From an uncultured Lysobacteraceae bacterium (GTDB taxonomy: Bacteria; Pseudomonadota; Gammaproteobacteria; Xanthomonadales; Rhodanobacteraceae): 11,648 bases of DNA. Of this stretch, positions 1,085 through 11,648 are shown piece after piece. Position 1 is the stretch's first letter. Each line of letters starts with the position of its first letter. Location: NCBI GenBank assembly GCA_946480705.1, contig CAMLLF010000048.1, positions 1 to 11,648 of the forward strand, in the 5' to 3' direction. Made by a program: the position numbers and the translations under genes. The notes beneath the pieces are model-generated. The model had not been told where the DNA came from. It ran no database searches and was given only the letters and a program-made list of their open reading frames with translations.

Positions 1085-2188
1085 ATGTCCTGGACTGAAA
1101 CCGATTTCACGCGCCGCCTCGGCCTGCGTCTGCCGATCGTGCAGGGGCCGTTCGGCGGCGGTCTGTCGGCGGTCGATCTCGCGGTCGCGGTCAGCGAAGG
1201 CGGCGGCCTCGGTTCGTTCGGCGTGCATCACCTCGACGGCGCCGGTATCCGCGAGATCGCCTCCGCGATTCGCGCGCGCACCGCGCGGCCGTTCAATCTG
1301 AACCTCTGGATCCCGTTCCGGGGCAGCGACGAACTCAGCGCCGACACGGCGACGTTCGACGCGTGGCTTGCGCCGCTGCGCGGCTTTTTCGACGAGCTCG
1401 GCGTTGCGCTCCCGACACCGCCGGAGCGCTACGCACCGGCCTACGCCGAGCAGATCGACGCGGTCCTCGACGCGCGGCCCGCGGTATTCAGCTTCGTCTA
1501 CGGCATCCCGTCGGCCGAAGTGCTTGCGCGCTGCCGCGAACTCGACATCGTCACGCTCGGCGCGGCGACCACGCCGGCCGAAGCGCGCGCGCTGGCCGCG
1601 GCCGGTGTCGACGCCGTCGTCGCGACCGGCATGGAAGCCGGCGGCCATCGCGTGTCGTTCCTGCGCGACGCCGAGCAGGTGCTGACCGGCGGCCTTGCGC
1701 TCGTGCCGCAGGTCGCCGACGCCGTGGACCTTCCGGTCGTGGCCGCCGGCGGCATCGCCGACGGTCGCGGCATTGCCGCGGCGCTGACGCTCGGCGCGCA
1801 GGCCGTGCAGATCGGCACCGGCTTTCTCGCCTGCCGCGAATCCGGTACGCACGATGCGCACCGCATGGCGCTGCTCGGTCCCGCGGCGGAGGACACCGGC
1901 CTCACGCGTGCGTTCAGCGGCCGCCTTGCGCGCGGCATCCGCAACCGTTTCATGCAGGAAATCGGCGCCGGGCCGCTCGCGCCGTATCCGGCGCAAGGCT
2001 GGCTCAGCGGCCGGCTGCGCGCCGCGGCCATCGCGCAGGAACGCACCGACCTCATGTCGCTGTGGTGCGGCCAGGCCGCGCCGCTGCTCGGCCGCAGCGG
2101 GTCCGGCGCGATTCCGGCCGCTGCCGGCTATCTGCAGCGGCTCGTCGCGGAAACCGACCGAGCCTTCGCCCGGCACGGGCCGCGTTGA
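1085..2188 (+). CDS. Nitronate monooxygenase (2-nitropropane dioxygenase family)
   Basis: The gene encodes a 367-residue FMN-dependent TIM-barrel enzyme of the nitronate monooxygenase family, which oxidises alkyl nitronates to carbonyl compounds and nitrite and thereby detoxifies compounds such as propionate 3-nitronate. Visible family features are the N-terminal P-I-V-Q-G-P-F-G-G-G segment (residues 17-26), the E-A-G-G-H motif at 184-188 with the presumed active-site His188, the A-A-G-G-I segment at 220-224, and Q-I-G-T-G-F at 242-247, which forms part of the FMN phosphate site. Length is within the usual 320-380 range and the frame is intact. It is divergently transcribed from the LysR gene and separated by 189 nt from the methyltransferase gene downstream. 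Its link to the peptide genes is doubtful. The physiological substrate cannot be read from the sequence, and related enoyl-reductase-like members of the superfamily are an alternative. Confidence 0.88.
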   Translation: MSWTETDFTRRLGLRLPIVQGPFGGGLSAVDLAVAVSEGGGLGSFGVHHLDGAGIREIASAIRARTARPFNLNLWIPFRGSDELSADTATFDAWLAPLRGFFDELGVALPTPPERYAPAYAEQIDAVLDARPAVFSFVYGIPSAEVLARCRELDIVTLGAATTPAEARALAAAGVDAVVATGMEAGGHRVSFLRDAEQVLTGGLALVPQVADAVDLPVVAAGGIADGRGIAAALTLGAQAVQIGTGFLACRESGTHDAHRMALLGPAAEDTGLTRAFSGRLARGIRNRFMQEIGAGPLAPYPAQGWLSGRLRAAAIAQERTDLMSLWCGQAAPLLGRSGSGAIPAAAGYLQRLVAETDRAFARHGPR

Positions 2189-2377: not shown

Positions 2378-3175
2378 ATGGCGCACGAGGGCAGTCTGGT
2401 CTGTGTGGGCCTGGGCATGACGTTGGGCTCGCATCTGAGCCCGCTTGCACGCAGCCATATCGAACAGGCCGATGTCGTTTTCGCCGGCGTTTCCGACGGC
2501 GTGGTCGAACTCTGGCTGCAGGGCATGCATCGCGACGTGCGCAGTCTGCAGCCGTATTACCGCGAAGGCATGTCGCGGCTGCGCACGTACGAGCGCATGG
2601 TCGAGGCCATGCTGACCGAGGTCCGCGCCGGCAAGAAGGTCGTCGGCGCGTTCTACGGGCATCCCGGCGTGTTCGCGCTGCCGCCGCATCGCGCGATCGC
2701 ACAGGCGCGCGCCGAGGGCTACGCGGCGCACATGGACCCGGGCATCTCGGCCGAGGACTGCCTGTATGCCGACCTCGGCATCGATCCGGGCCGCGTCGGC
2801 TGCCAGCACTTCGAAGCGAGCCAGTTCATGTTCTACCGGCGCCGCGTCGACACGTCCGCCTACCTCGTACTGTGGCAGGTCGGCATCGCCGGCGACCGCT
2901 CGCTCGCGCGGTTCTCCACGCCGTCGCAGTACCGCGAGGTGCTCGTCGACGTGCTGGCGCAGGACTATCCGCGCGACCACCCCGCGATCATCTACAAGGT
3001 CGCGACGCTGCCGATCCACGCGCCGCGCATCGACCACACGACGATCGCGGGTCTCGTCGACGCCGACATCGACCTGCATGCGACCGTCGTGCTGCCGCCC
3101 GCGCGCGAACTCGAACCGAACCGGGACGTGCTGCGCCGGCTCGGCGAACTCGATCAGGCGCTGGGCTACGCATGA
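2378..3175 (+). CDS. Borosin-type peptide alpha-N-methyltransferase (split, SAM-dependent)
   Basis: The 265-residue protein has the tetrapyrrole-methylase fold, in the subgroup that methylates peptide backbone amides with SAM (fungal OphMA and bacterial SonM). Key segments are visible: V-G-L-G-M near residue 10; Y-Y-R-E-G-M-S-R-L-R-T-Y-E-R-M (60-74), in which R67 and Y71 appear to match the catalytic Arg and Tyr of OphMA; Y-G-H-P-G-V-F (93-99), whose Tyr is also conserved there; and P-G-I-S-A-E-D-C-L-Y-A-D-L-G (121-134). The protein ends shortly after the catalytic domain with no fused core peptide, so it is the split type acting on a separate precursor, here the 93-residue product of the gene at 3911. 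The next gene starts within its stop (ATGA overlap). A cobalamin-pathway methylase is less likely: the peptide-methylase motifs fit better and no corrin genes are nearby. Cytoplasmic. Confidence 0.88.
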   Translation: MAHEGSLVCVGLGMTLGSHLSPLARSHIEQADVVFAGVSDGVVELWLQGMHRDVRSLQPYYREGMSRLRTYERMVEAMLTEVRAGKKVVGAFYGHPGVFALPPHRAIAQARAEGYAAHMDPGISAEDCLYADLGIDPGRVGCQHFEASQFMFYRRRVDTSAYLVLWQVGIAGDRSLARFSTPSQYREVLVDVLAQDYPRDHPAIIYKVATLPIHAPRIDHTTIAGLVDADIDLHATVVLPPARELEPNRDVLRRLGELDQALGYA

Positions 3176-3684
3176 GCGCCGCCGGCGCGATCGCGTTCGA
3201 AACGCAGCGGCTGCTGCTGCGCCCGCTCGGCGACGGCGACGAAACCTTCTATTGCGACATCTACGGCGATGCGGAAATCCTGCGTCACGTCGGTCCGCCG
3301 CTCACGCCGGAACGCGCGCGGCGCAGCTTCGTCGCGGCGCTGCGCCATACCCGCGCGCAGGCGCCGCGCGAGATGTTCGGCGTGCTTGCGCGTCGCGGCG
3401 ACGGTGCCCGCTTCGGCCTGTGCGGACTGCGCGCGATCGATCTCGCGGCGCGTCGCGCGGAAGCCGGCATCCTGCTGGCGGCGCCGGCGCGCGGACTCGG
3501 CCTGGCCGCCGAAGCGCTCGGCGGACTGGTGGCGCGCGCGTTCGCGACGCTGCCGCTCGAGGAGATCTATCTCGATTACGCGCCGCAGAACGCGGCGATG
3601 GCACGGCTTGCGCATCGTGTCGGCTTCACGGCGGCCGAGGCGCCCGGCGCGGCCCGCCGCGCGGTCCGCCGGCGGGCCGCATGA
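3172..3684 (+). CDS. GNAT-family N-acetyltransferase
   Basis: A 170-residue single-domain GNAT protein of the RimJ/RimL-like type, expected to move an acetyl group from acetyl-CoA to an amine. Evidence is the opening E-T-Q-R-L-L-L-R-P-L segment (about residues 9-18), the acetyl-CoA pyrophosphate-binding R-G-L-G-L-A (107-112) and the C-terminal N-A-A-M-A-R-L-A-H-R-V-G-F segment. The C-terminal tail is strongly basic. The ATG overlaps the methyltransferase stop by 4 nt with only a weak ribosome binding site, so translation is probably coupled. That coupling suggests a role in the same pathway: acetylating the released peptide's N-terminus or a side chain, or protecting the host from the product. 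The substrate cannot be deduced. The frame is open far upstream, but similarity begins at this start. Confidence 0.85.
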   Translation: MSAAGAIAFETQRLLLRPLGDGDETFYCDIYGDAEILRHVGPPLTPERARRSFVAALRHTRAQAPREMFGVLARRGDGARFGLCGLRAIDLAARRAEAGILLAAPARGLGLAAEALGGLVARAFATLPLEEIYLDYAPQNAAMARLAHRVGFTAAEAPGAARRAVRRRAA

Positions 3685-3701
3685 CAGGCAAGGCTCTTCA
3701 C

Positions 3702-3726
3702 CTGGCGGCCGTGGTAGTGCCGCCAG
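3702..3726 (+). other. 8-bp perfect hairpin in the precursor leader
   Basis: CTGGCGGC (3702-3709) and GCCGCCAG (3719-3726) form a perfect stem with a 9-nt loop, just after the GNAT stop. No T run follows, so it is not a standard terminator. It could be an mRNA-stability or processing element that lets precursor and enzyme levels differ, which is common where a peptide precursor follows its enzyme genes. Confidence 0.4.
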
Positions 3727-3835
3727 CGATCCACGGACGGATCGCACGAGAATCGGCCGCAGTCGGGTCGGCTTTCGGGATACCGCGCGGACGGCTGCCA
3801 GCCGGTCGCGCCGCTGCAACCAACAGGGGGACGAG

Positions 3836-3853
3836 GCGGGCCGCTCTGCCCGC
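3836..3853 (+). other. 6-bp hairpin upstream of the precursor gene
   Basis: GCGGGC (3836-3841) pairs with GCCCGC (3848-3853) around a 6-nt loop, 57 nt before the precursor start. It lies in the 226-nt non-coding stretch between the GNAT and precursor genes. In DNA this GC-rich such short stems arise often by chance. Confidence 0.25.
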
Positions 3854-3910
3854 GGAATCCCGGCTCACTCACTTCGCACCATCAGATCGCCGTTGAATCA
3901 GGAGAACACC

Positions 3911-4192
3911 ATGTCGAACGTCATCGAATTCCTGGACGCGATGGGCCGTAACGCACAGCTGCGCCATGCCGGCGCCGCCGATCTCGCGCTCGCGCTCGAA
4001 CAGGCGCAGCTCGATCCGGCGCTGCGCGCCGCCATCCTGTCCGGCGACCAGTCCCGCCTCGAAGCGCTGCTCGGCGCACGCACCAACGTGATCTGCGGCT
4101 TCGCACCGGCGCAGGACGACGAGGATCAGCAGGAAGCGCCGAACGAGGACGAGGAGATTGTCGCGCGCGCCAGCGCCGTCCGTGTCGCCTGA
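3911..4192 (+). CDS. Split-borosin precursor peptide (SonA-like)
   Basis: A 93-residue peptide, probably the substrate of the methyltransferase encoded at 2378. Residues 1-55 are leader-like and helical: V-I-E-F-L-D-A-M-G-R-N-A-Q-L (4-17) then L-D-P-A-L-R-A-A-I-L-S-G-D-Q-S-R-L-E-A-L-L-G (34-55). This matches the layout of the SonA borosin-binding domain (F-x-x-x-L-G-x-D-A-Q-L ... G-D-x-x-x-L-x-x-L). A short hydrophobic stretch follows, T58 to A67 (T-N-V-I-C-G-F-A-P-A), where SonA has its methylated core, so V60 and I61 are the best methylation candidates. Residues 69-82 are strongly acidic (9 of 14 are D or E), and 83-93 are hydrophobic and basic. A clear AGGAG lies 6 nt before the ATG. The open frame extends upstream into the GNAT gene but without similarity. 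Its 3' end overlaps the probable start of the next gene. C62 is the only cysteine. Confidence 0.8.
   Translation: MSNVIEFLDAMGRNAQLRHAGAADLALALEQAQLDPALRAAILSGDQSRLEALLGARTNVICGFAPAQDDEDQQEAPNEDEEIVARASAVRVA
4145..4156 (+). promoter_or_regulatory. Purine-rich ribosome binding site inside the precursor gene
   Basis: GAGGACGAGGAG lies just before the TTG at 4158 and also encodes the acidic stretch E79-E82 of the precursor. The first GAGGA is 8 nt from the TTG, a good distance. It favours the TTG over the in-frame GTG codons at 4182 and 4212, which lack a Shine-Dalgarno sequence. Confidence 0.4.
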
Positions 4193-6023
4193 CACGACGC
4201 CACTGCTGTGTGTGATCCAGGCGGTCGGCCGGCGTCTGCAGCCGGCCGGCCGCCTGATCGTGCTCGCGCTCGCCGCGCTGTTCGGCTCGGCGCTTGCGCT
4301 GCAACCCGATGAAGTCGACCGGCTGCTCGCCCAGGCCGACACGATCAAGAGTTCCGACTATCGCGAATTCGGCCGCATCCTCGACCAGCTCGAGGAAGCC
4401 GCGCCGCTGGCGCGCACGCAGTCGAGCCATCTCGCCTACCTGCAGGCGTGGCGGCGCGGCTATGCCGGCGAGTACGACGTCGCGATCCCGATGTACCAGG
4501 AAGTCATCAAGAATTCCGGCGACGCGACGCTGCAGTTCCGCGCGACCGCGAGCATGGTCAACGCGCTCGTCATCGCGCGCCGCTACCACGAGGCCTTCAC
4601 CTACCTCGACCTGCTCGTCGAGCGGCTGCCGACGATCGAAGACCGCATCGCCCGCTCGCAGGCCTACCACATGGCGGCCTACCTGAATAACCAGGTCGGC
4701 CAGTACGAGCTTGCCGAGGACTTCAGCGAAAAGCTCATCGCCGAAAGCCCCGACGGCCGCGGCGAGTGCATGGGCCGGCAATTGCAGGTCGAGTCGCTGT
4801 ACAAGCAGAAGCGGCTCAACCCCAACGGCGAGGAAGTGCGTCGCGCGCTGCAGGCCTGCGCGCGGATCAACGAGGTCGTGTTCGGCAATTTCGCGCGCCA
4901 GTTCGCCGCGCGCGAACTGCTCGACCGCCAGCAGTTCCGCGAAGCCGCGGACATGATCAGCGCGGTCTACGACGAGGTCCAGAACACGCGCTACCCGCAC
5001 CTGATCGCGCAGGTCGACGTCGTCATGGCCCAGGCCTACTGGGGACTGCGCGACCTCACCCAGGCACGCATGTACGCCCTGCGCGCGGTCGAGCGGCGCG
5101 TGCCGAGCCAGGCCACCGAACCGACCGTCGCCGCGTATTTCCTGCTCTACAAGATCGCCCAGGAGCAGGGCGACGCGCGCGCCGCGCTGAGCTATCACGA
5201 AAAATACGCCGAAGCCGACCGCCGCAACTTCGACGACGTCAGCGCCCGCTCGCTGGCCTACCAGATGGCGCGGCACCAGTCGATCGCGAACAAGCTGCAG
5301 ATCGACGCGCTGAACAAGCAGAACCAGGTGCTGCAATTGCAGCAGGACCTCGGCGCCAAGGCCGCCGAGACGAGCCGGCTCTACATCGGGATGCTGGTTG
5401 CCGGGCTGCTGCTGGTGTTTCTGTGGGCGTTCTATACCAAGCGGCGCCAGCTGCATTTCCGCACATTGTCACAACGTGACGGTCTGACGCAGATCGCGAA
5501 CCGGCCGTATTTCCTCGAACTGGCGCAGCATGCGCTCGACGAATGCCGGCGCACGCGCCAGGAAGCCGCGGCGATCCTGTTCGATCTCGACCATTTCAAG
5601 ATCATCAACGACCGTTGCGGCCACGCCGCCGGCGACCACGTGCTGCGCAAGGTCGCCGCGGTCTGCTCGACCTATCTGCAGGCCAACCAGTATTTCGGCC
5701 GCATCGGCGGCGAGGAATTCGCGATCCTGCTGGTCGGCTGCGACGAGGATCGCGCGGTCGGGCTCGCCGAGATGCTGCGCAACGCCGTGCGCGCCTCGGA
5801 GGCCGGCGACGTGCTCGACGACCGGCCGGTCACCGCGAGCTTCGGCGTGACCTCGACGACCAAGGCCGGCTACGAGCTGCACCACCTGCTCGCCTGTGCC
5901 GATGCGGCGCTCTACAAGGCCAAGCGCGAGGGACGCGACCGCGTCGCGCGCTATGACGCGACGCTGATGACGGCGCGGCGTTCGCCCTACGACATCACGC
6001 CGGGAACGGCGCGCGGTACCTAG
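4158..6023 (+). CDS. TPR-GGDEF diguanylate cyclase, membrane-anchored
   Basis: 621 residues counted from a TTG start. A signal-peptide-like segment (R25-R26 ... hydrophobic 33-45 ... A-L-A at 45-47) is followed by a helical TPR-like region (about 50-380), a coiled coil (about 380-405), one membrane helix (about 409-429) and a cytoplasmic GGDEF domain (about 440-605). The cyclase signature is complete: D-G-L-T-x-x-x-N-R, F-D-L-D-H-F-K-I-I-N-D (475-485) and G-G-E-E-F (517-521). It should make cyclic di-GMP from GTP under control of the periplasmic region. The product-inhibition RxxD I-site expected five residues before G-G-E-E-F is absent (Q-A-N-Q there). The TTG has a ribosome binding site and overlaps the precursor gene by 35 nt; a GTG start at 4212 would give a more usual signal peptide and no overlap. 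No EAL domain is present. Its role beside a peptide cluster is unknown. Confidence 0.85.
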   Translation: MSRAPAPSVSPDTTPLLCVIQAVGRRLQPAGRLIVLALAALFGSALALQPDEVDRLLAQADTIKSSDYREFGRILDQLEEAAPLARTQSSHLAYLQAWRRGYAGEYDVAIPMYQEVIKNSGDATLQFRATASMVNALVIARRYHEAFTYLDLLVERLPTIEDRIARSQAYHMAAYLNNQVGQYELAEDFSEKLIAESPDGRGECMGRQLQVESLYKQKRLNPNGEEVRRALQACARINEVVFGNFARQFAARELLDRQQFREAADMISAVYDEVQNTRYPHLIAQVDVVMAQAYWGLRDLTQARMYALRAVERRVPSQATEPTVAAYFLLYKIAQEQGDARAALSYHEKYAEADRRNFDDVSARSLAYQMARHQSIANKLQIDALNKQNQVLQLQQDLGAKAAETSRLYIGMLVAGLLLVFLWAFYTKRRQLHFRTLSQRDGLTQIANRPYFLELAQHALDECRRTRQEAAAILFDLDHFKIINDRCGHAAGDHVLRKVAAVCSTYLQANQYFGRIGGEEFAILLVGCDEDRAVGLAEMLRNAVRASEAGDVLDDRPVTASFGVTSTTKAGYELHHLLACADAALYKAKREGRDRVARYDATLMTARRSPYDITPGTARGT

Positions 6024-6098: not shown

Positions 6099-9000
6099 AT
6101 GGCAAACGAAGTGAACGGCGCGGCCTGGCCGGCCGTGGTCGCGGCGTCCGACGCCGTCGACGATCCTGTCGTCACCTGCGGTGCTGCCGACGGCGCCGTT
6201 CCGCTTGCGCTCGCCCAGCGCCGACTGTGGTTTCTGTCGACGCTGGGCCGCGCCGCCGCGCGCGCCTACGTCATGCCTGCCGGGATGCGCCTGCGCGGCG
6301 CGCTCGATGTCCCGGCGCTGCGGCGCGCGCTCGACCTGCTCGTGCAGCGGCACGATGCGCTGCGTACCCGCTTCGGGCTCGCCGACGGCGAGCCGGTGCA
6401 GTCGATCGCGGCGGCGGCCGGCGCGCGTTTCGCGCTCGTCGAACACGACCTGCGCCGCGACGCCGATGCCGAGGCCGCGCTGGACGCGCTCGTCGAGCAC
6501 GAATCCGCCGCGCCGTTCGATCTCGAGCACGGACCGCTGATTCGCGGCCGCGTCGTCGCACTGCCCGGCGACGAGCACGTCTGGCTGCTGTCGGCGCATC
6601 ACGCGATCTTCGACGGCCGGTCGATGGAACGCTTCGCGCACGAACTCGCGGACCTCTACCGCGGGTTGCGCGACGGCGCCGCCGTGGTGCTGCCGCCCGC
6701 GGGCCGCTATGCGGACTGCGTCGCGATCCAGCGCACCGACGCCTTCGCCGCGACGCTGCGCGAGCAGTCGGCCTACTGGCGCGAGGCGCTGCGCGACGCG
6801 CCGCCGACATCGACGCTGCCGGCCGATCGCGCGCGCGGCGCGCGGCACGACTTCGCCGGCGGACTCGTCGACGGACGGCTCGATGCGACGCGGACGGCAC
6901 GGCTGCGCGCACTCGCGCGGCGCCACGAAAGCAGTCTGTTCGGCGTGCTGCTCGCGGCGTGGGTCGTGCTGCTGCAGCGGTTGAACCGGCAGGACGAGGC
7001 CGTCGTCGGCGTCACGACCGACGGGCGCACGCAGCGCGAATACGACGGCGTCGTCGGCTGCTTCGTCGGCACGGTGCCGGTGCGCGTCACGCGCGCGTCG
7101 ACACCCGCGGCGGCGATCCGCGCGACGGCGCAGCGGTTGCGCGCGGCGCGCGCGCATCAGGATCTGCCGTTCGATCAGATCGTCGAGGCGGCACACGCCG
7201 AGCGCAGTCTTGCGCAAAATCCACTATTCCAGACCGCGCTGACGTGGTACGGCAGCCGCATCGAATCCTTCCGCTTCGACGGCACCGAGCCGTCGGCGCT
7301 GCCTGCGGTCGCGCGGCGCTACGGCGTCGCACCCGACGGCGCGTCGCGCGATGCGCTGATCCTGTACGGCGGCATCGGCGATCGTGTGCATGCCAAGCAC
7401 GACGTCACGCTGCTGCTCTGGGAAGCCGGCGGCAGCATCCATATCGGCGCCGAATACGCCACGGCGCTCTACGATCGCGACACGATCGCGCGCTGCCTCG
7501 GCTACTGGACGCGCCTGCTCGACGCGTTCGCCGATGACGACGCGCAGCCGCTTGCGCGCATCGCGCTCGTCGATCCCGTGGAGCGCCGGCAGCTCGTCGA
7601 CGGCTGGAACGCCACCGCCGTCGCGCGGCCGGCGACGACCTTGCCGGCGTTGTTCGCGCAGACCGCTCAGGCGATGCCCGGGGCGCCCGCGCTGAACTGC
7701 GGCGGCGCCATATTGAGCTATGCCGAACTGCAGCGCCGCGTACGTCGCGTCGCACAGCGGCTCGCGGCGCACGGCATCGGCCGCGGCTCGCGCGTCGGCG
7801 TCGCGATGGCGCGGCGCAGCGAACTCGTCGTCGCGCTGCTCGCGGTACTCGATGCCGGTGCGGCCTACGTGCCGCTCGATCCGTTGCATCCGCCCGAGCG
7901 GCGCGCACACATCCTGCGCGACGCCGGTGTCGCGGCGCTGCTGGTCTGCGGCGACGAATCCGGCACCGACGGGCGCGATGCCGTGCCGCGGATCGACGTC
8001 TCCGCCGCCGACGGCACCGATGCGCCGGACATCGCGCAATCACCTGCGGCGCCCGGCGATCTCGCCTACGTGATCTACACCTCGGGCACGACCGGCAAGC
8101 CGAAGGGCGTGGCGATCGGACATGCCGCGCTCCTGAACCTGCTGCTCGCGATGCGCGACGAACTCGCGATCGCCGCGGGCGACCGCGTGCTCGCGCTGAC
8201 GACGATCGCGTTCGACATCGCCGCGCTCGAACTGTTTCTGCCGCTGATCGCCGGCGGCTGCGTCGTGCTCGCCGACCGCGCGGCCGCGCAGGATCCGCGC
8301 GCGCTGGCCGCGCTGCTCGAACGCGAACGTGTCGACGTCATGCAGGCGACGCCGACCGGCTGGCGCGTGCTGCTCGACGGCGGCTGGACCGGCCGCGCCG
8401 GACTCAAGGCGCTGTGCGGCGGCGAAGCGCTGCCGAGCGAACTCGCGCGTCGCCTCGCCGCGCGCGTCGGCACATTGTGGAATGTGTACGGTCCGACCGA
8501 AACGACGATCTGGTCGACGATCCAGCGCATCGACGCGGGCTGTGCAGCGGCTACGACCGCCTGCATCGGCCGGCCGCTGGCCAACACGCAGGCCTACGTA
8601 CTCGACGGCGGCGGCGAACTCGCGCCGACCGGTATCGTCGGCGAGCTGTATCTCGGCGGCGCCGGGCTCGCGCGCGGCTATGTCGGGCTCGACGCACTGA
8701 CGCGCGAGCGCTTCGTCGCGAACCCGTTCGCCGCGGGCGAGCGCCTCTATCGCACCGGCGACCTGGCCTGGCGCGATCGCGACGGCCGCCTGCATCACGC
8801 CGGGCGGACCGACGCGCAGATCAAGCTCAACGGCTACCGGATCGAACTCGAAGAGATCGAGGCGCAGCTCGCGATGCACGCAGCCGTGCGCGAAGCGGCC
8901 GTCGCGCTGCGTCGCGACGCGGCCGGCTATGCGCGGCTCGTCGGCTACTGCGTGCTCGCCGACGAACGCGGCGACGCCGCGGCCGACCGCACCGACGAAC

Positions 9001-11648
9001 TGCGTGCGCATCTGCTGACGTCCCTGCCGAGCTACATGGTGCCCGAGGCGTTCGTCGTGCTCGAACACCTGCCGGTGTCGCCGAACGGCAAGACCGACCG
9101 GGCCGCGCTGCCCGAACCGCTCGCGATCGCGCGCGGCGGACACGAAGCGCCGCGCCCCGGCGTCGAGAGCGAGGTCGCCGCGGTCTGGAGCGAGCTGCTC
9201 GACGGCCGCGTGATCGACCGCCGCGATCATTTCTTCCGTCTCGGCGGCCACTCGCTGCTCGCCGTGCGCGTCCTCGTGCGGCTGCGCCGTGCGCTCGGCG
9301 TGGAAGTCGACGTCGCCGAGCTGTTCGCGCATCCGACGCTCGACGCGTTCGCCGCCGCGGTCGCGCGCGCCGGGCGCTCGGCCTTGCCGCCGATCGTTCC
9401 GGCGGCGCGCAGCGGCGACCTGCCGTTGTCCTCGGCACAGCAGCGGTTGTGGTTTCTCGCACAGACCGGCGCGGACGCGAGCCGCGCGTATCACATGCCG
9501 GTCGTGCTGCATCTGGACGGCGCGCTCGACCGCGATGCACTGCGGCGCGCGATCGCGGCGATCCTCGCGCGGCACGAGGCGTTGCGAACCGTGTTTCCGG
9601 CGCGCGCCGGGCGGCCCGTGCAGCAGATACGCGACACCGCAGACATCGCGCTGCCGTGGCGCGACGCGGCGTTCGACGACGACGCATCCGCGGTCGATAC
9701 GGCGATCGCGGCCGAAGTCGCGCGCGCGTTCGACCTGACCTGCGCGCTGCCGCTGCGCGTCGCGCTGCTGCGGTGCGGGCCGCGCGCGCACATTGCCGTG
9801 ATCACGATCCATCACATCGCCTGCGACGGCTGGTCGCTCGCGCTGTTCCTGCGCGAGCTGCAGGCGCATTACGCCGCCGCGTGTCGCGGCGACACGGCGG
9901 CCTTGCCGGCTCTGGCCGTGCAGTACGCCGACTACGCGCAGTGGCTGCAGAACGTGCAGGGCGCGACCGGTTTCGCGCTCGCAACGGCGTACTGGACGCA
10001 GCGTCTCGCCGATGCGCCGGCACTGTTCGAGCTGCCGTCGGACCGGCCGCGTCCGGCGCAACAGGACTATTCCGGCGATCTCGTGGCCTGCACGATCGGC
10101 GCGGACCTCACGCGCGGCCTGCACCGGCTCGCCGAGCAGTGCGGCGCGACGCTGTTCATGACGGCGCTCGCGGCCTGGGTCGCGCTGCTCGCGCGCCTGT
10201 CGGACGCGCGCGATTTCGTGCTCGGCATGCCGAGCGCGAACCGCGACAGCGCCGAAACCGAAGCGCTGATCGGATTCTTCGCGAACACGCTCGCGCTGCG
10301 TTTCGAACTCGGCGCCGATCCGACCGTCGCCGAACTCGTCGCGCTGACGCGCGACGAAGTGCTCGCCGCGCAGCAACATCGCGAACTGCCGTTCGAGCAG
10401 CTCGTCGAGGCGCTGAATCCGCCGCGCAGCGCAGCCTGCACGCCGTTGTTCCAGATCGCGTTCGCCTGGCAGAGCGTGCCGCCGGTCGATCTCGCGCTGC
10501 CCGGCGTGTCGACGACGCAGCGGCCCCTTTATCGCGCCGGCACCGCGAAGTTCGACCTGACCCTGTATCTGTGGCAGTCGGGCGATACGCTGCGCGGCGG
10601 CGTCGAATACGCGACTTCGCTGTTCGACCGGGCGACGATCGAGCGCTATCTCGCGCACTGGAACGTGCTGCTGCGGGCATTCGTCGCGGATCCGCAGCGC
10701 CGGCTCATGGCGTTGCCGCTGCTGACGCCGGCGCAGCGCGAGGCGTTGATCGGCGTCGCCTGCGGTCCGCGCGTCGCGTTCGGCGAGGGCCGCGTGCACC
10801 GGCTCGTCGAGGTGGCGGCGCGCCGCGAACGCGATGCGCCGGCCGTCGTGCAGGGCGCGCGCAGCCTCAGCTATGCGGAACTCGACCGGCGCGCGACTGC
10901 GCTCGCGCAGCGCTTGCGCGCGCACGATCTCGGCGCCGGCGCGCGCATCGGCGTGCTGATGCGCCGCAGTCCGGAATTGATCGTCGCGCTGCTCGGCGTA
11001 CTCAAGTGCGGCGCGGCCTACGTGTTGCTCGACACAGCGGCGCCGGCACAGCGTATCGCGGGCCTGCTCGTCGATGCGCAGGCACGCGCCGTCGTCGGCG
11101 ACGGACCGGAACCGCTCGAACTCGGCGACGGCGCGCTCGCGCTGCCGCGCTTCGTCGTCGCGCCCGGCGACGACGCGATCCCCGGGCGGGATCCCGCGCC
11201 CGCGCCGGCAGTCGAGCGCGACGACGACATCGCCTACGTGGTGTTCACGTCGGGCTCGACCGGTACGCCGAAAGGCGTGCTCGTCGGGCACCGCGGCTTC
11301 GCGAACTTCGTGCAGGCGATGCGCGATGCGCTCGGGCTGCAGCGCGGCGATCGCGTGTCCGGCGCCTGCGGCCTGGGCTTCGATGCGAGCCTCATCGATA
11401 TCTGGCCGACGCTCTGCGCCGGCGCGACGCTCGTGCTGACGCCGGTCGAACCCGCGCAGGACGCCGACGCATTCCTGCGCTGGTGGCGCGCCGAACGGCT
11501 GCATTGCAGCATGCTGCCGACGCCGCTCGCGGAGATCGTGCTCGCGCACGGCATCGTGCCGCCGACGTTGCGCACGCTCGCGACCGGCGGTGCCGCGCTG
11601 ACGCGGCGTCCGCCGGCCGGCGCGACCTATCGACTGCTCAATGCCTAC
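6099..11648 (+). CDS. Nonribosomal peptide synthetase, C-A-T-C-A(partial), 3' end beyond window
   Basis: An uninterrupted frame of 1850 codons runs from ATG 6099 (AGGGG upstream) to the window edge. Domains: C1 (about residues 30-470, H-H-A-I-F-D-G at 167-173); A1 (about 505-1000, Y-T-S-G-T-T-G-K-P-K-G at 660-670, Y-G-P-T-E at 797-801, N-G-K at 996-998); T (about 1015-1085, G-G-H-S with phosphopantetheine Ser1052); C2 (about 1105-1545, H-H-I-A-C-D-G at 1238-1244); A2 (from about 1555, F-T-S-G-S-T-G-T-P-K-G at 1716-1726), cut inside motif A5. By alignment to GrsA I read the A1 code as D706-I707-L710-Q749-C773-G775-V796-I804-W805-K998, close to the glycine code DILQLGLIWK. The A2 code is incomplete (D-A-I-M-A-G-A) and unassigned. 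Both C active sites are intact and no epimerase is seen. Beginning with a C domain implies either acyl-starter loading or an upstream partner synthetase. It starts 75 nt after the GGDEF gene, same strand. Confidence 0.95.
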   Translation, partial: MANEVNGAAWPAVVAASDAVDDPVVTCGAADGAVPLALAQRRLWFLSTLGRAAARAYVMPAGMRLRGALDVPALRRALDLLVQRHDALRTRFGLADGEPVQSIAAAAGARFALVEHDLRRDADAEAALDALVEHESAAPFDLEHGPLIRGRVVALPGDEHVWLLSAHHAIFDGRSMERFAHELADLYRGLRDGAAVVLPPAGRYADCVAIQRTDAFAATLREQSAYWREALRDAPPTSTLPADRARGARHDFAGGLVDGRLDATRTARLRALARRHESSLFGVLLAAWVVLLQRLNRQDEAVVGVTTDGRTQREYDGVVGCFVGTVPVRVTRASTPAAAIRATAQRLRAARAHQDLPFDQIVEAAHAERSLAQNPLFQTALTWYGSRIESFRFDGTEPSALPAVARRYGVAPDGASRDALILYGGIGDRVHAKHDVTLLLWEAGGSIHIGAEYATALYDRDTIARCLGYWTRLLDAFADDDAQPLARIALVDPVERRQLVDGWNATAVARPATTLPALFAQTAQAMPGAPALNCGGAILSYAELQRRVRRVAQRLAAHGIGRGSRVGVAMARRSELVVALLAVLDAGAAYVPLDPLHPPERRAHILRDAGVAALLVCGDESGTDGRDAVPRIDVSAADGTDAPDIAQSPAAPGDLAYVIYTSGTTGKPKGVAIGHAALLNLLLAMRDELAIAAGDRVLALTTIAFDIAALELFLPLIAGGCVVLADRAAAQDPRALAALLERERVDVMQATPTGWRVLLDGGWTGRAGLKALCGGEALPSELARRLAARVGTLWNVYGPTETTIWSTIQRIDAGCAAATTACIGRPLANTQAYVLDGGGELAPTGIVGELYLGGAGLARGYVGLDALTRERFVANPFAAGERLYRTGDLAWRDRDGRLHHAGRTDAQIKLNGYRIELEEIEAQLAMHAAVREAAVALRRDAAGYARLVGYCVLADERGDAAADRTDELRAHLLTSLPSYMVPEAFVVLEHLPVSPNGKTDRAALPEPLAIARGGHEAPRPGVESEVAAVWSELLDGRVIDRRDHFFRLGGHSLLAVRVLVRLRRALGVEVDVAELFAHPTLDAFAAAVARAGRSALPPIVPAARSGDLPLSSAQQRLWFLAQTGADASRAYHMPVVLHLDGALDRDALRRAIAAILARHEALRTVFPARAGRPVQQIRDTADIALPWRDAAFDDDASAVDTAIAAEVARAFDLTCALPLRVALLRCGPRAHIAVITIHHIACDGWSLALFLRELQAHYAAACRGDTAALPALAVQYADYAQWLQNVQGATGFALATAYWTQRLADAPALFELPSDRPRPAQQDYSGDLVACTIGADLTRGLHRLAEQCGATLFMTALAAWVALLARLSDARDFVLGMPSANRDSAETEALIGFFANTLALRFELGADPTVAELVALTRDEVLAAQQHRELPFEQLVEALNPPRSAACTPLFQIAFAWQSVPPVDLALPGVSTTQRPLYRAGTAKFDLTLYLWQSGDTLRGGVEYATSLFDRATIERYLAHWNVLLRAFVADPQRRLMALPLLTPAQREALIGVACGPRVAFGEGRVHRLVEVAARRERDAPAVVQGARSLSYAELDRRATALAQRLRAHDLGAGARIGVLMRRSPELIVALLGVLKCGAAYVLLDTAAPAQRIAGLLVDAQARAVVGDGPEPLELGDGALALPRFVVAPGDDAIPGRDPAPAPAVERDDDIAYVVFTSGSTGTPKGVLVGHRGFANFVQAMRDALGLQRGDRVSGACGLGFDASLIDIWPTLCAGATLVLTPVEPAQDADAFLRWWRAERLHCSMLPTPLAEIVLAHGIVPPTLRTLATGGAALTRRPPAGATYRLLNAY

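Follow-up and report, generated by a model that had tools for sequence, protein, structure and literature searches.

What is a borosin peptide made for when its genes are followed by that of a putative sensory cyclase? For split borosins, enzyme and precursor are known from many bacteria, and the accessible portions of the literature state no function for a product. The question is raised by a stretch of 11,648 nucleotides (the window) from an uncultured Lysobacteraceae bacterium (GenBank assembly GCA_946480705.1, contig CAMLLF010000048.1), which encodes a borosin-type methyltransferase, a GNAT acetyltransferase, a small borosin precursor and a protein combining a TPR domain with a GGDEF diguanylate cyclase domain (TPR-GGDEF). 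The best explanation, to which we assign a probability of roughly 0.53, is that this split borosin locus serves as a peptide-signalling cassette in which the N-methylated core would be the ligand of the TPR domain and tune cyclic di-GMP (c-di-GMP). The initial annotation had read the span 2378..4192 as a split borosin locus; both open reading frames (ORFs), and with them the borosin pair, stand, but the locus as described is incomplete, as the acetyltransferase gene inside the span and the TPR diguanylate cyclase gene just outside it were overlooked.

That the methylase and the small peptide are a borosin enzyme and its precursor is very likely, judging from sequence comparison. Against the PDB the methylase matches SonM, the split borosin enzyme of Shewanella oneidensis, at 3.5e-78 (266 bits), and for OphMA-type enzymes the E-value is about 1e-54. 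With these matches, and with 5956 homologues at E<=0.001 among 7997 scored candidates, it is not a chance ORF. The segments on which the earlier call was based (R67, Y71, YGHPGVF at 93-99 and PGISAEDC at 121-128) were recovered from the ORF. Residues of importance in SonM, according to the available text of PMC8429565, are Y58, R67, Y71 and Y93 together with F99, E146, W166 and Q167; these correspond to Y61, R67, Y71, Y93, F99, E146, W166 and Q167 of the window methylase, such that the active-site residues Y58, R67, Y71 and Y93 and the lock residues F99, W166 and Q167 are all matched. The enzyme might instead be a corrin, siroheme or YabN-type tetrapyrrole methylase with an unrelated small ORF beside it, as its Pfam family (TP_methylase, 5e-20), the tetrapyrrole or precorrin methylase names given by some sources and NCBIfam matches to YabN and precorrin-3B methylase would have it. 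These NCBIfam matches are weak and far under the cut-off, the borosin active-site residues and an adjacent precursor are present, and the best precorrin methylase match in the PDB, a precorrin-2 methylase, reaches E 0.03 and 17 bits against the 266 bits of SonM, which refutes this alternative on score and leaves it a negligible probability; the clustering with corrin or siroheme enzymes that the initial annotation had named as fatal to its claim is thus not seen on search scores.

Two observations on related methylases are recorded here. In L152:2327-3964 (-), and also in genome G406, a 545-aa ORF consists of two tandem borosin methyltransferase domains, and in a draw of genomes from the same order one or two internal stop codons fall within the matched range of 19 of 127 methylase matches (among the matches listed), which may mark pseudogenes, gene ends or assembly errors.

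The precursor was likewise proposed to follow the layout of the SonA borosin-binding domain (BBD). A profile of 22 sequences (the window and 21 homologues) bears this out with a match to SonA at 2.8e-5; a single-sequence PDB search with the precursor did not find SonA, so that confirming the layout took a profile. Homologues number 80 among 92 candidates, the weakest at 6.5e-6, which argues against a chance ORF, and one database protein (P0001) is near-identical at 99%. An AlphaFold2 model built from 59 sequences predicts five helices in residues 3-54 and nothing ordered beyond, with a pLDDT of about 79-87 over the first 50 residues and a mean of 70.6. The ten best matches of this model in a PDB fold search are SonA chains, LigAB and a dbOphMA structure; they are weak, the SonA chains ranking best, and none passes E 0.001 (best E 0.25). 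Profile and model thus indicate a separate precursor with a predicted five-helix BBD, whose relative is the LigA-like BBD of SonA. The BBD is followed by a short hydrophobic segment, NVICGFAP, and then by an acidic tail. Cys62 of the core is invariant in 59 aligned close homologues; more widely, a Cys lies at residues 53-70 in 87 of the 109 locus precursors with a length of 60 aa or more, and Asp/Glu make up a median of 32% of the sequence past residue 62. Because the methylated residues of SonA are 63 and 65 (PMC11285071, in the part available), residues 58-67 are by analogy the likely methylation target, as the initial annotation had anticipated. Homology, active-site residues, the BBD and adjacency together support the call of a split borosin with methyltransferase and separate precursor.

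Among related precursors, that at L004:11340-11789 has 140 aa, with four repeats of the acidic tail built around a DEEEIR-like unit. A core class without Cys, roughly PQxxQxPGHEE, occurs in L036-L039, L041, L043, L054, L056, L065 and L072 (Dyella, Frateuria, Fulvimonas and relatives); these precursors share the BBD and the TPR-GGDEF neighbour with the rest.

The protein encoded next to the precursor (Table 1) reads, from its N-terminus, as a signal-like segment, a predicted periplasmic TPR domain, a membrane helix and a cytoplasmic diguanylate cyclase, with topology and secretion calls resting on hydropathy here and below. Its real start is perhaps GTG 4182 or 4212, overlapping or just past the precursor stop. 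Two Cys of the TPR domain (ORF residues 204 and 234) are invariant in 83 aligned sequences, and the domain was modelled by AlphaFold2 at a pLDDT of 92.7; fold matches of the model include the Rap, NprR and AimR pheromone receptors, among other TPR proteins. The GG(D/E)EF motif reads GGEEF in the window and is kept in 82/82 homologues, from which cyclase activity is predicted. The I-site RxxD of 73 of the 82 relatives is QANQ in the window cyclase (5679-5690).

Table 1 Coordinates of the cassette and its neighbours in the window
Feature	Position	Strand	Basis or remark
Borosin-type peptide backbone alpha-N-methyltransferase (SonM homologue), 265 aa	2378..3175	+	ATG start; homology and active-site residues
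GNAT acetyltransferase, 170 aa	3172..3684	+	Pfam Acetyltransf_3 2e-23; start overlaps methylase stop (ATGA)
Shine-Dalgarno-like AGGAG ahead of precursor	3900..3904	+	Sequence reading
Borosin precursor (93 aa) with BBD leader at residues 1-54, then hydrophobic core with Cys62 and acidic tail	3911..4192	+	
Putative core ARTNVICGFAPAQDD (residues 56-70), likely N-methylated stretch	4076..4120	+	Inferred by analogy with SonA
TPR-GGDEF protein, ~600 aa	4158..6023 (longest ORF)	+	Pfam GGDEF 5.6e-38; topology from hydropathy
TPR sensor domain, 357 aa	4302..5372	+	Alignment, AlphaFold2 model, fold matches
Membrane helix between TPR domain and cyclase	5376..5438	+	Hydropathy; in 82/82 homologues
GGDEF domain, GGEEF intact at 5706-5720	5472..5942	+	
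Nitronate monooxygenase gene	1085-2188	+	
LysR gene	Upstream of cassette	Opposite	
Large nonribosomal peptide synthetase (NRPS), start (C-A-T-C-A)	6099-11648 (runs to window end)	+	Begins 75 bp past TPR-GGDEF

How constant is this arrangement? When GTDB genomes were searched with the alignment of the methylase, 80 of at least 568 confirmed loci (among the matches listed) were kept. A precursor and a GGDEF homologue lie downstream of the methylase in 78 of the 80 loci each, and the remaining two (L031 and L052) end at the methylase; a looser count that accepts any place in the locus finds the precursor in 77/80 and the GGDEF homologue in 79/80. A full-length set of GGDEF ORFs (at least 560 aa, E<1e-70) comprised 82 proteins in 71 of the 80 loci, and a precursor stands upstream of all 82. 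That the TPR cyclase is as constant as the precursor points to signalling and not to a generic natural product; a neighbour that resembles a receptor and would make c-di-GMP suggests a peptide acting as a signal and not as an antibiotic. The acetyltransferase is an optional cassette member: a homologue is found directly downstream of the methylase in 29/80 loci and anywhere in the locus in 45/80, and one database protein (P0200) is a methylase-GNAT fusion. In five Shewanella loci (L046, L049, L059, L061 and L069) the GNAT homologue seemingly lies upstream of the methylase, not between methylase and precursor.

We also approached the association from the side of the sensor, with a profile of the TPR domain only (83 sequences). 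In 15 genomes it gave 23 matches at E<=1e-20, 20 of them known cassettes, judged by count and spacing, and the other three also adjoin a methylase and a precursor. One of the three methylases, from Shewanella atlantica, is orthologous to SonM (6.8e-140); the TPR match beside it is a distant one (1.6e-29). In that species the type IV family, whose structure has been studied, therefore has a partner of this type. Among 200 genomes of the order, the TPR subfamily occurs in 105, the methylase in 95 and both in 90 (Fisher p=5e-34). Distances were counted for 125 of 150 listed TPR places (E<=1.4e-48; at least 150 in all) and for 122 of 127 listed methylase places; outside the count are five methylase matches, partial or to a second domain, one of them on the L131 contig. 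The loci described here exclude L085-L113. A methylase is found within 6 kb of 97/125 TPR places, and a TPR place within 6 kb of 80 of the 85 methylase places at E<=1e-100; two of the other five have TPR fragments (L141 and L144), two are at contig ends (L142 and L143), and L140 is truly without TPR. At L140:3032-4995 (-) the methylase lies between two precursor-like ORFs, and no TPR-GGDEF was detected in the 7 kb around it.

Of the 28 TPR places without a nearby methylase, 16 have a precursor-like ORF upstream, 10 have none and two are at a contig start. Such ORFs were accepted to an E of 0.05, with the database size set to 5000, and several of the 16 are weak; L131, with a methylase fragment at the contig edge, is among them. 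In four genomes (L145-L148) a single ORF of 846-863 aa unites TPR, GGDEF and methylase, and directly upstream of it lies a SonA-like precursor. A class-wide draw of 229 genomes, with the TPR domain in one and the methylase in four, is too sparse for use; three of its four methylase matches (E 2e-63 to 9e-47) come without a TPR match, which means that a distant methylase may lack this partner. Taken over all these counts, we consider it very probable that the borosin pair and the TPR-GGDEF protein form a functional unit.

Related in layout are the RRNPP quorum-sensing systems (Rap, NprR, PlcR and AimR), whose signature, in the part of PMC10075063 available, is a small propeptide gene adjoining the gene of a TPR receptor. 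The window shares this gene pair and the TPR fold: the propeptide has 93 aa, within the 10-100 aa expected, its ORF overlaps that of the putative receptor, and peptide binding by the modelled TPR domain is putative. It departs from RRNPP in being Gram-negative, in pairing the propeptide with a methyltransferase, in the lack of a secretion signal on the propeptide by hydropathy, in a protein of about 600 aa with a TPR domain predicted to be extracytoplasmic (periplasmic) in place of an intracellular receptor of 250-500 aa, and in its diguanylate cyclase output. By analogy with the SonM-SonA mechanism, the methyltransferase would dock the BBD and methylate backbone amides of the core near residues 59-66 (NVICGFAP). 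A protease would then cleave off the leader, the exposed N-terminus may be acetylated by the GNAT enzyme, and the N-methylated product would reach the periplasm. There it would bind the TPR domain of the adjoining cyclase and alter its c-di-GMP output, much as RRNPP pheromones act in Gram-positive bacteria. For the step from peptide to TPR ligand, with export as its main gap, we see an even chance.

Eleven loci with two precursor/TPR-GGDEF pairs in tandem allow a comparison within a locus. Precursor and TPR domain diverge between such copies, and the cyclases remain closer to one another: the share of differing residues is 31-69% for the TPR domains (mean 54%) and 4-30% for the cyclase domains (mean 15%). 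In most of these loci divergence drops near residue 340-370, ahead of the membrane helix, the drop being gradual and partly reversed in L021 and L030. Ordinary conservation explains part of the drop, as the median cyclase difference is 26-52% in pairs from different loci whose TPR distance is similar. Compared with such pairs, 10 of the 11 tandem loci fall under the median cyclase difference and seven in the lowest 5%; L021 is unexceptional, 86 of 168 pairs being equally similar. When the members were swapped within loci (2048 arrangements), the true arrangement ranked first for core and TPR, 4th for BBD and TPR, 15th for core and cyclase and 894th for BBD and cyclase. We read precursor and sensor as one exchangeable module placed before a homogenised output domain, a pattern that linkage alone could produce.

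Several findings weigh against the signalling reading. As a positive control of the swap test, the TPR domain was set against the cyclase of its own protein; the true arrangement came only 499th of 2048, so the test fails to recover even a within-protein link; the rank also fits homogenised cyclases. Over 82 pairs the core correlates with the TPR domain at 0.507 and with the methylase at 0.509 (partial 0.23). BBD-TPR agreement in the tandem loci is about equal to core-TPR agreement, for which linkage alone could suffice. A coarser test of matching found the cyclase in agreement with the BBD in 14/14 and with the core in 13/13 cases where contrasts sufficed, and the TPR domain in 22/29 and 26/32, so the TPR domain is not separated from the cyclase. 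The fold matches of the TPR model are non-specific, with eukaryotic proteins in the top rows. No precursor was detectable at 10 of the 28 TPR-GGDEF proteins without a nearby methylase. Hydropathy of the precursor N-terminus passes the threshold for a secretion-like segment in 1 of 109 precursors, not the window's, and beyond the cassette families no exporter, protease or other family occurs in more than 10 of the 80 neighbourhoods (ORFs of 80 aa or more within 8 kb were clustered all against all, with a simple greedy gene choice; an opposite-strand ORF cluster in 35/80 loci was taken for antisense ORFs). With neither a secretion-like N-terminus nor a further conserved family, delivery of the peptide to a periplasmic domain is the weakest step of the reading. 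Methylation, binding and export are all predictions here, made from sequence and by analogy.

Part of this evidence would also suit a partnership of proteins, in which the whole precursor or its BBD, and not a released peptide, is the partner of the TPR-GGDEF protein and methylation is a switch or stabiliser. Besides rivalling core-TPR agreement in the tandem loci, BBD-TPR agreement is the stronger over all pairs (0.84 vs 0.51; BBD and methylase correlate at 0.70), the fusions place methylase and cyclase in a single chain, and a TPR-GGDEF cyclase controlled by the product of a neighbouring gene is described in Vibrio vulnificus (RcbA-RcbB; PMC12282931). In the part of that paper available, however, both proteins are predicted to be cytoplasmic, the partner is a TPR protein and not a peptide, and no methylase is named; in the window the TPR domain is predicted to be periplasmic, whereas the BBD docks the methyltransferase (PMC8429565, in the text available), which has no known reason for leaving the cytoplasm. 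We regard this alternative as quite unlikely.

The missing exporter bears on a further alternative, in which the locus makes an ordinary borosin product (a metabolite, toxin or metal binder) and the TPR-GGDEF protein regulates production or response through c-di-GMP with no peptide binding. Co-localised regulators are common in biosynthetic loci, the Cys invariant in the cores of close relatives could bind metal together with the acidic tail, and neither an exporter nor an uptake family is conserved across the 80 neighbourhoods. A pathway regulator, on the other hand, need not vary its sensor along with the precursor in tandem copies, nor adjoin precursors that lack a methylase, and no other family recurs in more than 10/80 neighbourhoods. 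An ordinary product is the strongest competitor to the signalling cassette, and still an improbable one.

For some relatives a pepsin-like A1 protease is a candidate leader protease. A gene of this type lies at most 2 kb upstream of the methylase in 7/80 loci, PF00026 being confirmed in the five scanned. PF00026 occurs in 22 genomes of the 200-genome draw. The TPR subfamily is present in every one of them (p=2.3e-7) and the methylase in 20 (p=1.5e-5); a control search matched 0/14 genomes. PF00026 is without a match in 75 of the 95 methylase-bearing genomes, and the pepsin-like gene of the Tahibacter aquaticus genome (G001, the source of L004) is on a different contig. Shewasin A, a protease of this kind, cleaves a borosin precursor. 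Counterparts of the shewasins, themselves pepsin-like A1 proteases, are encoded in relatives' loci and none in the window; shewasin D is mainly cytoplasmic (PMC4814920, in the part available).

Does the locus represent a new class? Split borosins, the BBD and types IV-X have already been described (PMC8429565, PMC11395268 and PMC11285071, in the parts available), and a GGDEF architecture is known as well. For this reason we file the locus, which is a type IV-like split borosin, with that type and present a signalling reading, not a new class. Like the window, SonM-SonA (type IV) has a separate methyltransferase and a BBD-led precursor and the same active-site residues; the window differs in the NVxC and acidic tail of its core and in the GNAT gene overlapping that of the methylase, and the main text of the SonM paper (PMC8429565) contains no mention of an acetyltransferase or GNAT. 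GGDEF is named in a borosin architecture in the legend of Fig. 1 of PMC11395268, as an abbreviation whose type is not given there, and the part available states no receptor role. In the literature searched, borosin and GGDEF occur together only in that paper, the SonM paper not being among the matches. A peptide-receptor role for borosins is proposed in no paper among the matches listed, subscription papers being outside the scope of the search.

Since a receptor-like protein stands almost always beside the precursor in this group, the signalling reading would offer split borosins a concrete role: ligand in, c-di-GMP out. More broadly, and with rather less than even confidence, we propose that split borosins with a BBD precursor are backbone-N-methylated signals, each matched to the adjoining periplasmic TPR receptor-cyclase, with precursor and sensor evolving and being exchanged as one specificity module before a common c-di-GMP output, a Gram-negative and RiPP-based (ribosomally synthesised and post-translationally modified peptide) counterpart of RRNPP. 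If so, backbone N-methylation would serve a signal peptide, through protease resistance or conformation, Gram-negative bacteria would possess a genetically encoded, diversifying peptide-receptor code, and some periplasmic TPR cyclases whose ligands are unknown would gain candidate ligands.

On the + strand of the window the order is nitronate monooxygenase, methylase, GNAT, precursor, TPR-GGDEF and NRPS start, and the closest genome loci in the methylase-alignment scan (among the matches listed) are from Tahibacter and other Rhodanobacteraceae/Lysobacteraceae. Nitronate monooxygenase and LysR were rejected as cassette members, with homologues anywhere in the locus in 3/80 and 14/80, respectively. 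The NRPS was rejected as well: homologues directly downstream are confined to the three closest loci (L001-L003), a weak match in L080 being upstream, which makes it a neighbour and not a part of the cassette. In the L001-L003 relatives the NRPS might nevertheless be co-transcribed or co-regulated with the cassette.

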